In this document: piece after piece, positions 1,201 through 45,414 of the stretch
How positions within the stretch are numbered: position 1 is the first letter of the stretch
Layout of the letters: each line of letters opens with the position of its first letter
IMG/VR virus record: IMGVR_UViG_3300031351_000002
Span: 1 to 45,414 of that record
Source of the DNA: a virus
Reading direction: 5' to 3' (one strand)
DNA length: 45,414 nucleotides
Notes under the pieces: generated by a model
What the model was told of the DNA's origin: nothing
Databases searched by the model: none
Seen by the model: only the letters and a program-made list of their open reading frames with translations
Position numbers and translations under genes: made by a program

Positions 1201-1238
1201 TACCCTCCAAACTTTATTCTCTCACTATCACTATAATG
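1201..1238 (-). repeat. Start-associated leader, type A, copy (before the 1000-1197 gene)
   Basis: Read leftward it contains ATAGTGATAGTGAGAGAATA followed by GTTTGGAGGGTAGAA and the ATG. The same sequence, apart from one extra GA, precedes the 1830-2027 gene. Confidence 0.7.
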
Positions 1239-1508: not shown

Positions 1509-1524
1509 ATGCTTTAGTCGCTTG

Positions 1525-1570
1525 CTACTGGACACTACCGGAGTAATGCCCAGGTGTAAGAGACTAACGA
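1525..1570 (-). repeat. Intergenic hairpin repeat, copy A
   Basis: Matches 2674-2720. The first 30 bases (1525-1554) are identical to 2674-2703, and the rest differs by one indel and a few substitutions. Inside, 1528-1538 and 1543-1553 pair over 9 of 11 positions around a four-base loop. On the leftward transcript the loop reads TCCG closed by a C-G pair, which fits the stable UNCG tetraloop class. It lies at the 3' end of the 1564-1791 gene, whose stop codon it includes. Confidence 0.75.
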
Positions 1571-2030: not shown

Positions 2031-2064
2031 TACCCTCCAAACTTTATTTCTCACTATCATTATA
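2031..2064 (-). repeat. Start-associated leader, type A, copy (before the 1830-2027 gene)
   Basis: Read leftward: ATGATAGTGAGAAATAAAG, then TTTGGAGGGTAGAA and the ATG at 2027. The stop codon of the upstream ImmA-like gene lies just inside it. Confidence 0.7.
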
Positions 2065-2518
2065 TGTGTGTTGCTTTCCAGTAATCGGCGTGCCATTTTT
2101 GCTCTCTATGGTCATCACCATATATGTAAGTTACCGGCGACAAGTATTTCTTATATATCCTTAACCCTTTGGGAACTTTAGCCATTCGGCGATTAAGTGC
2201 CTTGGCGAGCGCAAAGGCTAAGCTATACTTCATTCGTGTTTTAACCTCTTTAGGTACACTGAAACCAAAGCGCTTGAATTGAGCTATTGAAAACTGCCAG
2301 GCCATAAGTTCCTCTCGCCAGCGTGGGCTTATTCTGCCGTTAACTATATGTCCAACCTCATGGGCAAAGACGGCAAAGCTAAGCGGTCTTCGTGGCACTG
2401 GCGCACTAATCGCTCTATCATCAATATAAGCAATCCCAGACATATTATGCCTGATAGTTTTCACAGACACTACATGCTCTTTTAATAATTGCTGGCCGGC
2501 TAATTCGTATTTATTCAT
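2060..2518 (-). CDS. ImmA/IrrE-like zinc metallopeptidase, 152 aa
   Basis: Residues 49-60 read AVFAHEVGHIVN, an HExxH zinc-peptidase motif (His53, Glu54, His57). Residues 67-77 (WREELMAWQFS) place a Glu about 12 residues later, matching the third zinc ligand and helix of the ImmA/IrrE (M78) family. Known members relieve repression by cutting or antagonising phage and ICE repressors, or act as toxin-antitoxin partners. Here the gene lies in the leftward operon rather than beside the repressor, and that operon's promoter carries a likely repressor operator. I infer a role in induction; a metallopeptidase with another substrate is the alternative. Only a weak ribosome binding site (AGTGATAGTGAG) precedes the ATG. 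Confidence 0.75.
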   Translation of the reverse strand: MNKYELAGQQLLKEHVVSVKTIRHNMSGIAYIDDRAISAPVPRRPLSFAVFAHEVGHIVNGRISPRWREELMAWQFSIAQFKRFGFSVPKEVKTRMKYSLAFALAKALNRRMAKVPKGLRIYKKYLSPVTYIYGDDHREQKWHADYWKATHI

Positions 2519-2548
2519 CTCACTATCACTTTTTACTACTAACTCGCG

Positions 2549-2656
2549 TTAACAACTCAACAGAACCTGTTGGCTCGGTTACAGAGTCCTAGCGGTTTGT
2601 TCTGCGCAAACTGCATCCTCTTGTCTCATAACCAACAAGCTCTATTCAATTGTTAA
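2549..2656 (-). ncRNA. Candidate structured RNA or structured 5' leader in the leftward transcript
   Basis: Arms 2632-2656 and 2549-2573 pair over 24 of 25 positions in the leftward RNA: 20 Watson-Crick, 4 G-U and 1 G-G mismatch. On the opposite strand the four G-U pairs become A-C mismatches, so the fold belongs to the leftward transcript. The 58-base interior can form further stems (bases near 2577-2586 with 2618-2633, and 2595-2599 with 2607-2611). No long reading frame crosses it. It lies in the 195-bp gap before the ImmA-like gene, so it may be a separate RNA or a leader controlling that gene. Confidence 0.65.
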
Positions 2657-2673
2657 GGTGCTTTATCCCCTTA

Positions 2674-2720
2674 CTACTGGACACTACCGGAGTAATGCCC
2701 AGGGTGTAAAGGACTAACGA
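2674..2720 (-). repeat. Intergenic hairpin repeat, copy B
   Basis: Second copy of the element at 1525-1570, with the first 30 bases identical. The hairpin is 2677-2687 with 2692-2702. It follows the LPD29 gene and includes its stop codon, and lies just upstream of the structured-RNA candidate on the leftward transcript. Confidence 0.75.
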
Positions 2721-3295
2721 TTCAACACAATCCTTTCAAATGTCTGCTCTAGCGTTTCGTTAGTATCAAAGTCCCATACCATTTGACGGGCTAGGCTGTC
2801 CACCCACTGATTACCGAACCTATCGGCGGGTGGCTCGCCCTCGCACCTGCAATATTGCCGTATATGAGCTGCTGCCCGTTGTTCTCGCTCTTCAAAGTTA
2901 GTTATATGGCGGTTGCAGAAAACATAATTAGCACCAAAGTGTACCATTTCGGCGTCAGGGTGCGGCGCATCACTAACAAAGCCGGGAATTGAACCGCCAT
3001 AACTTTCGGGCCTATATGCGAGGTCAGCCTCACCGTTCGGCAATAGCCAGCTATCCTGACAAGTCGCAAGGTCATTCATGCCGTCAAAACTTCTACCCTC
3101 GAATCCCTTGACTACTGCCTCCACTACTTTGGCGCGCTCGCCATCCGTCCAAGATATGTCTATTGAGGCGCCGCCACTGTAAGATTTAGACCTAACTGAG
3201 AATTTAGTATCGGGGAAGTGCTTAGCCAATGCTTGTCTAACTAGCTTGGCCGTCTCTGCAACCGTGAGATAGCGTGTCTGTGTCTCTGTAATCAT
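2714..3295 (-). CDS. LPD29-domain protein, 193 aa
   Basis: The N-terminal part (TRYLTVAETAKLVRQAL, FSVRSKSYSGGASIDISW, then TDGERAKVVEAVV) matches my memory of LPD29, a domain named from large polyvalent phage and plasmid proteins and also found alone. Its biochemical role is not established. The C-terminal half holds HFGANYVFCNRHITNFEER and CRCEGEPP, which could bind metal. The ATG at 3295 has GGGAGGGAATAAAGGAA in front; a GTG at 3334 lies in the repeated leader. It is the largest protein of the leftward operon. Confidence 0.75.
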   Translation of the reverse strand: MITETQTRYLTVAETAKLVRQALAKHFPDTKFSVRSKSYSGGASIDISWTDGERAKVVEAVVKGFEGRSFDGMNDLATCQDSWLLPNGEADLAYRPESYGGSIPGFVSDAPHPDAEMVHFGANYVFCNRHITNFEEREQRAAAHIRQYCRCEGEPPADRFGNQWVDSLARQMVWDFDTNETLEQTFERIVLNR

Positions 3296-3300
3296 TTCCT

Positions 3301-3340
3301 TTATTCCCTCCCTTGTTTTATTTCTCACTATCACTATATA
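3301..3340 (-). repeat. Start-associated leader, type A, best copy
   Basis: Read leftward: ATAGTGATAGTGAGAAATAA, then AACAAGGGAGGGAATAAAGG and the ATG at 3295. The first part packs TAG and TGA stops in two frames, and the upstream gene stops in it. Other copies are near 1201, 1801, 2031, 3661 and 3977, with short cores at 2519-2530 and 3483-3494. Confidence 0.8.
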
Positions 3341-3483: not shown

Positions 3484-3493
3484 CTCACTATCA

Positions 3494-3655
3494 CTACTTA
3501 CCAGCCTCATAGCAATCGGGGCACAATATTCTTAATGTTTTCCTATGTTTTCTACCAACGAGAAAGCCACAGATTAAACGCCCGCAACTATCGCATATAG
3601 CGCCACCTGGTATGCGCTTCCAGTATCTATTGTCCCTATTAATCCGCTTTCTCAT
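3494..3655 (-). CDS. Zinc-ribbon protein, 53 aa
   Basis: Contains CDSCGRLICGF and CPDCYEAGK, two CxxC knuckles about 24 residues apart, the usual spacing of a small zinc ribbon, with a very basic N-terminus (MRKRINRDNRYWKR). Probably binds DNA or RNA or is an adaptor to RNA polymerase; function not known. A GAGGGTGTA site precedes the ATG. The stop codon overlaps the core of the next start-associated leader. Confidence 0.65.
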   Translation of the reverse strand: MRKRINRDNRYWKRIPGGAICDSCGRLICGFLVGRKHRKTLRILCPDCYEAGK

Positions 3656-3660
3656 TACAC

Positions 3661-3690
3661 CCTCTTTTTATTTCTCACTATCACTATAAT
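3661..3690 (-). repeat. Start-associated leader, type A, copy (before the 3494-3655 gene)
   Basis: Read leftward: ATAGTGATAGTGAGAAATAA, then AAAGAGGGTGTA and the ATG at 3655. Confidence 0.7.
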
Positions 3691-4039: not shown

Positions 4040-4074
4040 TTTACAATTGTAAACTTTTTATTACAACTTGTCAA
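4040..4074 (-). promoter_or_regulatory. Leftward early promoter (PL-like) with overlapping operator
   Basis: Read leftward: TTGACA (4069-4074), a 17-base spacer and TACAAT (4046-4051). The -10 lies inside the perfect 14-bp palindrome TTTACAATTGTAAA (4040-4053). The Cro promoter at 35495-35523 has the same layout and shares TTGACAAGTTG at the -35. I infer that the CI-like repressor and the Cro-like protein bind here. Confidence 0.8.
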
Positions 4075-4171: not shown

Positions 4172-4200
4172 TTGACAAGTAGCAAAGCGAGGTTTATACT
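4172..4200 (+). promoter_or_regulatory. Late promoter (pR'-like)
   Basis: TTGACA (4172-4177), a 17-base spacer and TATACT (4195-4200). Transcription should start near 4207 and meets a terminator at once (4214-4266). The spacer contains AGCGAGGTTTA (4186-4196), which also occurs at 4121-4131. No other good promoter was seen ahead of the terminase and structural genes. Confidence 0.7.
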
Positions 4201-5280: not shown

Positions 5281-5633
5281 TGAAGCACTATCCCCGCCTC
5301 TAACCTGGCAGTATATACGGGACCAGTATAAACTCTGCTTCCCACGGGCCTAGCCGGCAGGATACCACAGGCTCAATAACCACATAATACTCATAGTGCG
5401 CCCCACCTCTAGTCGTGCAATGTGACAGTTGTCTACCTGGCATAGCCAATTCAGTGGATTTGGACAGCACTTGACCACCGATGTCGCCCCAGTGGGTGGG
5501 TTATTGATTGGTCAGGTCTCCCTCTGGGAGCGGGGGGGGGTGCTCCCGAAATCGGGCTGGCGGACTCTTGTGGGGAATACTCCAGAGTTAAATCTGTGAT
5601 TTTGAAAACTCAAAGTCTCAAAGGGAGGAGAAA
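5281..5633 (+). other. Gap of 353 bp without a gene
   Basis: I find no convincing reading frame. A hairpin GGGAGC/GCTCCC (5526-5531, 5542-5547) encloses a run of nine G (5532-5540), which is prone to length error. A short open stretch near 5303-5352 (LTWQYIRDQYKLCFPRA) ends at a TAG and has no start. The region could be leader RNA or the remains of a gene. Confidence 0.4.
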
Positions 5634-6073: not shown

Positions 6074-6232
6074 ATGTCAAAAGTACATCCAGTCAAAATC
6101 ATTCACGAGGTTCAGCATCCACCGGGAGCTTGGAAGGGGAAGACAACTATTATTGCTGAAAATGTCGACCCGAAGGAAGCTGCCAAAGAAATCCAGGCCG
6201 TTATTGAGATGATAGTAATTTATGAGAAGTAA
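6074..6232 (+). CDS. Small hypothetical protein, 52 aa
   Basis: MSKVHPVKIIHEVQHPPGAW, then a strand (KTTIIAENVDP) and a helix (KEAAKEIQAVIEMIV). This looks like a compact alpha/beta fold. A strong AAGGAGG site lies 7 bases ahead of the ATG. It is 9 bp before the next gene, so the two are probably co-translated. Function unknown. Confidence 0.7.
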   Translation: MSKVHPVKIIHEVQHPPGAWKGKTTIIAENVDPKEAAKEIQAVIEMIVIYEK

Positions 6233-6241
6233 GGAGAAGAA

Positions 6242-6532
6242 ATGCCTGGCATAGAAGAGAAAAGGAAGCAGATAAGGGAAGGGGTTAATGACATACTCAA
6301 GCGGTATGGTAACTATGCGGATGGCTACGATGCTGATGGAGATGAACTTGATATTGATGGTGCGCTTGGGGCAATCTTCTCCTGTCTCCATTCTGAGGAT
6401 GTAGTGATAAAGGTAGACAAGGAGTTACCCGCGCCACATAAATCATACTCTTTAGGGGAGGGTTACAAGATAGTTCAGCAAGATATGCTCGATGCTGGCT
6501 ATGTAGCAACTGAACCACTAACTGAGGCTTAA
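6242..6532 (+). CDS. Paralogue A of a small acidic family, 96 aa
   Basis: Begins MPGIEEKRKQIREGVNDIL and ends GYVATEPLTEA. The protein from 35849-36136 shares the start (IEEKR..IR.G), the central YLHS/CLHS..VVI segment and the ending GYVAT.PL, so the two are paralogues in different operons. The 5' DNA is nearly identical (ATAGAAGAGAAAAGGAA), which suggests recent duplication or recombination. Function unknown. Confidence 0.75.
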   Translation: MPGIEEKRKQIREGVNDILKRYGNYADGYDADGDELDIDGALGAIFSCLHSEDVVIKVDKELPAPHKSYSLGEGYKIVQQDMLDAGYVATEPLTEA

Positions 6533-6831: not shown

Positions 6832-7007
6832 TTAAATATATGGCTTTTGAGGAACAGGAGGAGTTTTGGCGCAGGCATCGAGAATCTAAGGAGCAAATAC
6901 AAAGAGACTTTGACAAGTTGCCACGCAAAAAGAAGCTGAAGATTATAAAGGAGATGGAGGCTAACCGTAAAGCAATGCGGAATGCTGAGCCACTGGTAAA
7001 GGATTGA
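6828..7007 (+). CDS. Charged helical protein, 59 aa
   Basis: MIKYMAFEEQEEFWRRHRES, then a long Lys/Glu-rich helix (KLPRKKKLKIIKEMEANRK). Coupled to the gene before it by an ATGA overlap. The last 18 bases (6990-7007) are identical to the end of the 35849-36136 gene, a trace of recombination between the two regions. Function unknown. Confidence 0.65.
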   Translation: MIKYMAFEEQEEFWRRHRESKEQIQRDFDKLPRKKKLKIIKEMEANRKAMRNAEPLVKD

Positions 7008-9424: not shown

Positions 9425-9628
9425 ATGTTAAAGCGAATGACGGACACAATCTATGGAATGCTCTATCGCAATGGTCGCTATGACGAAGGAAACTGGATGG
9501 TGCATTTCTTTGCCACCAAGCGAGAGAGGGAATCAGCCTACAAGCAGGCAGGTCAGCATCCAGGTATGGAACTGAGAAGATTTGAATTTAGGCTGGAGCA
9601 AGTAGTGGGGGAAGAGATTGACCACTGA
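9425..9628 (+). CDS. Hypothetical protein upstream of large terminase, 67 aa
   Basis: MLKRMTDTIYGMLYRNGRYD, EGNWMVHFFATKRERESAYKQ and a basic/acidic C-terminus. It overlaps the large terminase start by 11 bp, implying coupled translation. Function unknown; small genes at this place sometimes encode HNH or packaging accessories, but no such motif is present. Confidence 0.6.
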   Translation: MLKRMTDTIYGMLYRNGRYDEGNWMVHFFATKRERESAYKQAGQHPGMELRRFEFRLEQVVGEEIDH

Positions 9629-11027
9629 TATTGATGGCTCTCCTGTCACCAGAGTGCAGATAGAAGTCCCCAAGCCTCATTCTCTCAAGCAAGAGGAATT
9701 TGTCAGGGCTACCGAACTCAGGCAGGTAATCAAGGCAGGCAGACGGTTTGGCAAGACGGTAGGGGCAGCGATAAAGGCCCTGGAGGCGTTTCTGGGTGTC
9801 TGTCCCGCTTGCGGGGGAGAAGGCTGCTTGCGCTGCGAGATGACAGGTAAGGTAACACCAAAGCGAGTTCTCTACGCTGCGCCGACTTCAGAACAGGTAG
9901 GCAAGTTCTGGTACGAGATAACTTTAGCACTCAACAGTCCCGTTGAAAGTGGGTATCTTAAGAAAGATGAGACGGAGAAATTCATCGAGGTTCCGGGTAC
10001 GGAGCAGAGAATAAAAGCAAAGACAGCGTGGAATGCTAATACTCTCAGGGGCGACTATGCCGACCTGCTGCTACTTGAAGAGTTCCAGCTTATGAACGAG
10101 GATACCTGGGATGAGGTGGGCCAGCCGATGCTGCTTGATAACAACGGCACGGCGGTATTCGTTTATACCCCACCCTCTTTGAAATCAGAGGGAGTCAGCA
10201 AGGCGAGAGACCCCAGGCACGCCTCTAAGATGTACCAGAAGGCGCTGACCGATACGACTGGAAGGTGGAGAACATTCCACTTCACCAGCTTCGATAATCC
10301 GACTCTCAGCGCAGAAGCATTGAAAGAAATCGGGGAAGGAGATATGTCCCTCGATGCCTACCGCCGTGAAATACTGGCGGAGGATGATGAGATTGAAACA
10401 TCGTGGCTCGTCTACGGCAAGTTCGATGAGGCACTCTGCAAGATAAAAAGATTTGCCATACCTGAAACGTGGCCGATACGGTCTGGACACGACTTCGGCT
10501 CGGCCAATCCTGCTGCCCTTTTCGTTGCTGAAGTTAAATTGCCGATACCGGATGGCGCACCCAGGCATCTCAGGTATGGGGACTATGTGGCTTTTAGTGA
10601 GTATTCCCCGGGGGCTGGCTTCTCAACGGCACAGCACGTTGACGAGTTCAAGAGAATTACCAGAGGGCTTGATGTGCAGATGTCCACTGGTGGGAATGTG
10701 ACCACTGAAGATGAGATAAGGCAGGGGTATCAGAGTCAGGGCTGGATGATAACAGCGCCGACAATCACGAGGGTAAACGCCCAGATAGATAGAGTTCTCG
10801 GGATTATGGAGCAGAAAAAGCTCTATATCTTTGAAGATATGTTCAGGATACTGGCGCAGATAGCCAACTGTATGTGGGTTCTTGACGCCGAGAAACAGCC
10901 GACCAACAAGATAAGGGACGAAAGCAAGTATCATTTACTCGCCTGTCTGCGGTATCTGGGAACTATTCTCAGGATGGATACAGCCATAAGCGAGAAGCGG
11001 AAGTCAAAGCATTCAATGACTCTATGA
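9618..11027 (+). CDS. terL: Terminase large subunit, 469 aa
   Basis: The packaging motor and nuclease. The Walker A motif is AGRRFGKT (40-47), and the Walker B motif with its catalytic Glu is DLLLLEEF (149-156). The C-terminal nuclease begins at about residue 290 with SGHDFGSANP (first acidic residue), and further acids follow in TTEDEI and DESKYHLL. Odd feature: CPACGGEGCLRC (62-73), a CxxCxGxGCxxC zinc-knuckle pattern between Walker A and the next strand. A TTG start is used with GGGGGAAGAG ahead. The portal gene follows by 8 bp. Confidence 0.9.
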   Translation: MTTDIDGSPVTRVQIEVPKPHSLKQEEFVRATELRQVIKAGRRFGKTVGAAIKALEAFLGVCPACGGEGCLRCEMTGKVTPKRVLYAAPTSEQVGKFWYEITLALNSPVESGYLKKDETEKFIEVPGTEQRIKAKTAWNANTLRGDYADLLLLEEFQLMNEDTWDEVGQPMLLDNNGTAVFVYTPPSLKSEGVSKARDPRHASKMYQKALTDTTGRWRTFHFTSFDNPTLSAEALKEIGEGDMSLDAYRREILAEDDEIETSWLVYGKFDEALCKIKRFAIPETWPIRSGHDFGSANPAALFVAEVKLPIPDGAPRHLRYGDYVAFSEYSPGAGFSTAQHVDEFKRITRGLDVQMSTGGNVTTEDEIRQGYQSQGWMITAPTITRVNAQIDRVLGIMEQKKLYIFEDMFRILAQIANCMWVLDAEKQPTNKIRDESKYHLLACLRYLGTILRMDTAISEKRKSKHSMTL

Positions 11028-35531: not shown

Positions 35532-35852
35532 ATGGCTACAGAGCTTGAACTCCTGATAAAGAAACAAAGAGACGAGGGCTTAACCGACAGCGAGATGGGT
35601 GAACGGCTAGGTGTTTCCAGGGTTCATTACAACTACATCAAGAATAAGAGGTCAGCCGTAAATGACAAGTTCATAATGAAAGCGTATCGGGCATTCCCCG
35701 ATATTTTTTTACCCAACAGTTTTACCAGCGTAAAAAGGGACATTACGGGTGACAAACAGGACTACCCTGAGACCTCACCAAATGAAAATCTAGGGTCGCT
35801 TTGGGGTCGGGTAAAGGGATTGTTCAAGGGGATAGGGAATAAGGGGGAATGA
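35532..35852 (+). CDS. Cro-like HTH regulator, 106 aa
   Basis: TDSEMGERLGVSRVHYNYIK is a helix-turn-helix (about residues 17-36) in an N-terminal domain, with a flexible C-terminal tail. It is divergent from the repressor and first in the early rightward operon, which is the Cro position. It should compete for the TTACAnnTGTAA sites. Almost no 5' leader is predicted and no Shine-Dalgarno site is present. It overlaps the next gene by 4 bp. Confidence 0.8.
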   Translation: MATELELLIKKQRDEGLTDSEMGERLGVSRVHYNYIKNKRSAVNDKFIMKAYRAFPDIFLPNSFTSVKRDITGDKQDYPETSPNENLGSLWGRVKGLFKGIGNKGE

Positions 35853-36136
35853 TGCTAGACATAGAAGAGAAAAGGAACGAGATAAGGGGAGGGATAGAGC
35901 AAATCCTTGATTTATACATTGATGAAGGTTTGGAAGAAGAACGACTCATTAAGCGTGCTGATAAAATTCTGCGGTATCTCCATTCTCAGGGTGTAGTGAT
36001 AGCGGATAGGGACAGGGGGTTACCTGAAGTTAAAGTTGACTTTGGTGATGGTTCCTACGAAATACTCACTAACATTATAGGACACAAATATAATCAAGCT
36101 GGCTATGTAGCAACTATACCACTGGTAAAGGATTGA
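35849..36136 (+). CDS. Paralogue B of a small acidic family, 95 aa
   Basis: LDIEEKRNEIRGGIEQILDL, ending GYVATIPLVKD. A relative of the 6242-6532 protein (see there). Two adjacent ATG codons precede it after GGGGGA. The last 18 bases equal those of the 6828-7007 gene. Function unknown. Confidence 0.75.
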   Translation: MMLDIEEKRNEIRGGIEQILDLYIDEGLEEERLIKRADKILRYLHSQGVVIADRDRGLPEVKVDFGDGSYEILTNIIGHKYNQAGYVATIPLVKD

Positions 36137-45392: not shown

Positions 45393-45414
45393 CTTGCGCC
45401 TCTTTATTAACTAA
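45379..45414 (-). CDS. 3' end of the 90-aa protein, cut by the window edge
   Basis: The last codons of the gene seen whole at 206-478, within the right terminal repeat. Confidence 0.75.
   Translation of the reverse strand, partial: LVNKEAQDANK

Follow-up and report, generated by a model that had tools for sequence, protein, structure and literature searches.

What does a predicted 26-pair stem contribute in the longest gap of a compact phage operon, and does it act as RNA, as DNA or not at all? The question arises in the window, that is, the whole stretch of DNA analysed (45,414 bases), whose first and last 241 bases (1-241 and 45174-45414) are identical except for one mismatch at position 128; given this 241-nt terminal direct repeat, the sequence probably represents an entire genome, circular or terminally redundant. 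The leftward operon in which the stem lies continues across the repeat junction. The phage is temperate and tailed, since it encodes a GP7-type major capsid protein, a large terminase, a tyrosine integrase and a CI-like S24 repressor. The terminase (9618-11027, plus strand) resembles that of Methanosarcina virus MetMV (53% over 210 residues), in contrast to the capsid protein, which is of the BPP-1/phiV10 kind. Elsewhere in the window, two diverged duplicate segments (6230-6519 and 35840-36123) are found in two small-gene regions, an identical 18-nt gene end occurs at 6990-7007 and 36119-36136, and ORF 206-478 contains a perfect 15-bp inverted repeat with a 13-nt spacer (299-313 and 327-341).

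The features on which the argument turns are given below in the order of leftward transcription.

4046 to 4074, minus strand: promoter-like site, TTGACA-17-TACAAT, a consensus match only
2714 to 3295, minus strand: gene with an LPD29 domain (PF18847), followed by elements A and B
2659 to 2720, minus strand: element A copy 2, starting at the TAG stop of ORF 2714-3295 and lying directly 5' of hairpin B
2549 to 2656, minus strand: hairpin B, 26 pairs over 27 positions with a partly structured apex of about 54 nt
2060 to 2518, minus strand: IrrE/ImmA-like metallopeptidase gene of 152 aa with an HEVGH motif, following hairpin B
1510 to 1570, minus strand: element A copy 1, starting at the TAG stop of ORF 1564-1791 and 89% identical to copy 2

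The promoter-like site at 4046-4074 is, from its match to the consensus, the probable start of the leftward transcript. It is one of two divergent strong consensus promoters, the other being at 4172-4200 on the plus strand, and the pair likely marks the region of early control that separates the leftward operon from the rightward one. With gene starts placed under the guidance of Shine-Dalgarno (SD) sequences, the gaps in the leftward operon measure at most 38 nt except for those of 84 nt, 87 nt (holding element A copy 1) and 195 nt (holding elements A and B). The last is the longest in the operon and contains no ORF of 40 aa; the first-pass annotation had likewise placed the stem in the operon's only long gap.

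On the minus strand, the arms of hairpin B (2549-2575 with 2630-2656) form 21 Watson-Crick and five G-U pairs around a single G.G mismatch at 2558/2647. The stem had originally been described over its outer 25 positions (2549-2573 with 2632-2656), and a recount reproduces that description exactly: 24 positions are paired, 20 by Watson-Crick and four by G-U pairs, and 58 nt separate the arms. Extension inwards adds the fifth G-U pair (2574/2631) and a further Watson-Crick pair (2575/2630). This is the top-ranked ungapped 25-position stem of the whole 45-kb window; the stem maxima in 12 whole-window dinucleotide shuffles, with wobble allowed and either strand considered, were 21-23, and the next-best natural stems of 25 positions hold only 14-16 Watson-Crick pairs compared with 20 in hairpin B. 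Local RNA folding of 2545-2660 gave -45.5 kcal/mol on the minus strand (z -6.2, with none of 1000 shuffles as low) and -33.4 kcal/mol on the plus strand (z -3.7). Within a 601-nt section of the leftward transcript, pair probabilities of the stem were 0.89-1.0, the outermost pair excepted. The full 26-pair helix is predicted to form only on the leftward strand. An Rfam covariance-model search returned no family match at E values up to 10. Another region of low folding energy, at 5430-5600, was discarded as it folds no better than its shuffles.

Whether such a helix reflects selection on RNA may be judged from the polarity of its wobbles, because an inverted repeat decaying by transitions is expected to acquire them equally on either strand. 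In the stem the polarity is 5:0 in favour of the minus strand (p 0.03), and the plus-strand version of the helix is weakened by five A.C mismatches. The apical hairpin contributes one pair of opposite polarity, which brings the ratio to 5:1 (p 0.11), and the wobbles of the stem, apical hairpin and element A taken together stand at 9:2 (p 0.03, with counts partly read from the sequence). A strand difference of 12 kcal/mol in the fold, as seen here, is found in 6.8% of 116-nt segments of this genome. The strand argument for RNA over DNA is fair, not strong, owing to the opposite apical pair and to the lack of any stem homologue in the searches described below. The first-pass annotation had read the leftward-only pairing as a sign of selection on an RNA; the 5:0 wobbles and the better z score of the minus strand bear this out in part, but the p value of only 0.03 and the drop to 5:1 with the apical hairpin temper it. 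That a leftward RNA has been under selection is plausible, given the stem wobbles and given that both copies of element A favour the minus strand in the same way as the stem.

Element A is a 61-nt sequence present twice, with an 11-bp hairpin that contains two G-U pairs, is capped by a UNCG-type tetraloop (cUCCGg) and is invariant between the copies. The tetraloop exists on the minus strand only, and the folds of the two copies have z scores of -5.6 and -4.4 on that strand versus -3.1 and -1.5 on the plus strand. Six differences between the copies fall in the outer stem of 12 positions, of which 10 are paired in one copy and 11 in the other; no pair is changed on both sides between the two sequences compared, and the retention of outer-stem pairing despite these differences is suggestive only, as just two sequences are available. 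The main difference between the two gaps that hold element A is hairpin B, which resembles a module added between 'AAAGCA' and 'TAGTAGTA'.

Searches in viral contigs, genomes, phage records and plasmid records revealed no homologue of hairpin B or element A. In viral contigs, neither the core of element A nor the arm patterns, exact or degenerate, had a match, and the single match of the degenerate arm pattern in genomes, in Zobellia, is not the hairpin B stem. BLASTN against phages left the stem unmatched, returning only 27-34 nt at the peptidase start and leader region (E 0.02 at best), a weak match that lies outside the stem and adjoins nrdB in T4-like phages. The plasmid search yielded nothing, and a covariance model of hairpin B, run on the window and on five peptidase loci, detected no further copy. 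Relatives sought through TerL, the LPD29 gene and the peptidase comprised two close and three distant peptidase homologues, all in different contexts.

The operon also shares a start-associated motif, TAGTGATAGTGAG, which occurs with at most one mismatch at six sites just before gene starts, every one of them in the leftward operon; by chance, the entire window should contain about two matches at a tolerance of up to two mismatches. The motif is usually followed by AAATAAA...GGAGG, and within this leader there is often a TATAAT-like start, together with the preceding gene's tandem stop codons.

3674 to 3686, minus strand: start-associated motif upstream of start 3655
3484 to 3496, minus strand: start-associated motif abutting start 3483 and overlapping the preceding gene's stop
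3324 to 3336, minus strand: start-associated motif upstream of start 3295
2519 to 2531, minus strand: start-associated motif, here AAGTGATAGTGAG, abutting the peptidase ATG with no SD module between
2050 to 2062, minus strand: start-associated motif upstream of start 2027 and containing the stop of the peptidase gene
1221 to 1233, minus strand: start-associated motif upstream of start 1197

A related leader is present in phage contig L004 at 4962 and 5793 (plus strand), before a peptidase homologue and another gene. In the leftward operon the two weakest anti-SD energies (both -5.3) are those of the peptidase start at 2518 and of start 3483, compared with -8.6 to -17.8 at nine other starts. 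The peptidase gene does have a poor ribosome binding site, as had been remarked at the outset, but the feature is not unique to it, start 3483 being no better. Start 3483 lies 10 nt past a stop, and its gene may be translationally coupled to the preceding one; the peptidase start lies 195 nt past a stop.

The best explanation of hairpin B, to which we assign a probability of roughly 0.42, is that it is a structural RNA element between cistrons of the leftward polycistronic mRNA, serving in processing or insulation. The helix would be cut by RNase III or a similar enzyme, or would form a barrier to exonucleases and to folding across it. The upstream part of the mRNA, on the side of the LPD29 gene, would be closed by hairpin A, the downstream part would begin before the peptidase gene, and the two parts would thereby differ in lifetime and translation. 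An output governed by processing, and not by coupling to the preceding gene, would be consistent with the weak ribosome site at the peptidase start. In favour of this reading stand the stable minus-strand fold, the 5:0 stem wobbles, the place of hairpin B in the 195-nt gap downstream of a consensus leftward promoter, the minus-strand preference of hairpin A and the missing U-tract; the modest strand preference and the lack of homologues in the searches above tell against it. RNase III processing sites are characterized by in-stem cleavage that leaves a 2-nt 3' overhang. The 26 pairs of the hairpin B helix exceed the 22 bp taken as the minimum RNase III target (PMC5371410). RNase III sites are known in the messages of phages T7, T3 and lambda (PMC5371410). 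A point against the reading is that, of 19 candidates with long double-stranded regions put to the test, 8 were left uncut (PMC5371410). Hairpin B resembles the RNase III hairpins of T7/T3 and of the lambda N leader and cIII in combining a predicted helix of more than 22 bp with a place ahead of a gene, in a presumably untranslated gap of a putative polycistronic message; it differs from them in being only a candidate for cleavage and in showing no sequence relation to them.

Alternatively, hairpin B could be a 5' regulator of the peptidase gene, controlling ribosome access or message stability in response to a signal or protein. The identity of the gene product is reasonably well grounded: its HEVGH motif, an HExxH zinc site, is invariant in six homologues, and its AlphaFold model (mean pLDDT 87) has as its best viral match in Foldseek an IrrE N-terminal-like phage protein (TM 0.70, E 6.5e-6). 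Owing to this structural match, the 'ImmA-like' label given in the first-pass annotation is a fair one and is retained here. Profiles from Pfam, NCBIfam and PHROG gave no match to the peptidase, and a structure search of the PDB returned nothing significant, its weak matches including PprI/IrrE and ArdC. A regulatory role would suit a stem that ends about 30 nt before the ATG of a gene that lacks a good SD and whose distance from the preceding stop, 195 nt, is too great for simple coupling. However, the helix leaves out the start region, which the predicted fold keeps largely open, and the gene at start 3483 has an equally weak leader and no stem. Furthermore, the two close peptidase homologues, with 72% and 66% identity in contigs L004 (the closest) and L005, respectively, have good SDs and no stem upstream, so that, on the comparison of these loci, hairpin B is not a conserved switch or companion of the peptidase. 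The original proposal that the stem may control the peptidase gene is therefore not supported, and we consider this explanation somewhat unlikely.

A further reading takes hairpin B as a MITE-like palindromic mobile element, or an insertion with terminal inverted repeats, whose RNA fold would be incidental. Hairpin B is missing from the gap that holds element A copy 1, which gives it the appearance of an extra module, and TTAA is present at both ends, which is weak evidence because TTAA is self-complementary. Set against this, the window contains no second copy, a degenerate terminal-repeat pattern matched no viral contig and produced one chance match in genomes, no target-site duplication is visible by eye in the flanks, and the wobble polarity of 5:0 would not be expected of such an element. 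A mobile origin thus appears improbable.

Hairpin B could also act at the DNA level, as an operator, a recombination site or a single-strand origin that functions as an extruded or single-stranded hairpin. The closest parallel in layout is provided by the cluster K mycobacteriophages, in which, as here, a 13-nt motif (there SAS/ESAS) precedes the starts of several non-structural genes, in some cases with an inverted repeat upstream (PMC3203893). The inverted repeats near SAS were judged likelier to be protein-binding sites in DNA than RNA hairpins, because they did not support RNA pairing (PMC3203893). The cluster K SAS sequence is GGGATAGGAGCCC (PMC3203893), from which the motif described here differs, and the cluster K repeats are 17 bp long, occur in many copies and have spacers of mostly 4-13 bp (PMC3203893), whereas hairpin B is single-copy, spans 27 positions and shows pairing favoured on one strand. 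The five A.C mismatches that weaken the plus-strand helix, together with the same strand preference in element A, argue against a DNA site. Integron attC sites are likewise long imperfect palindromes with strand asymmetry that adjoin a gene end, but the RYYYAAC...GTTRRRY ends are not in the required order in either A or B, and this identification was rejected. Overall, a DNA-level function carries a low probability.

Intrinsic terminators, which are also stable intergenic hairpins, consist of a G+C-rich hairpin followed by a U-tract; neither A nor B is followed by a U-tract and both are therefore ruled out as such. Between the convergent operons, a very stable hairpin at 44860-44915 folds on both strands (z -7.3 and -5.4) and is probably a bidirectional transcription end, though it has no clear U-tract. 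That hairpin B is a chance structure or a functionless relic, as the lack of homologues and a polarity p value of only 0.03 might suggest, is improbable for the top stem in 45 kb, whose fold none of 1000 shuffles equalled and which sits beside a duplicated structured element in the single long gap that the compact operon has.

The processing role favoured here for hairpin B would most likely represent ordinary phage control in a new guise; what the analysis adds to the first-pass annotation is the duplicated element A and the shared start-associated leader. A broader proposal, which we regard as unlikely, is that A, B and the start-associated leader form a set of phage-specific cis-acting RNA modules that would join interchangeable small genes into one messenger and set the output of each, perhaps with the help of a hairpin-recognizing phage protein. 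Should hairpin B prove to be a site of processing, it would illustrate the way in which an uncultured temperate phage splits its long early mRNA, and the repeated stop-codon hairpins and common start leader suggest a modular wiring of its accessory genes.
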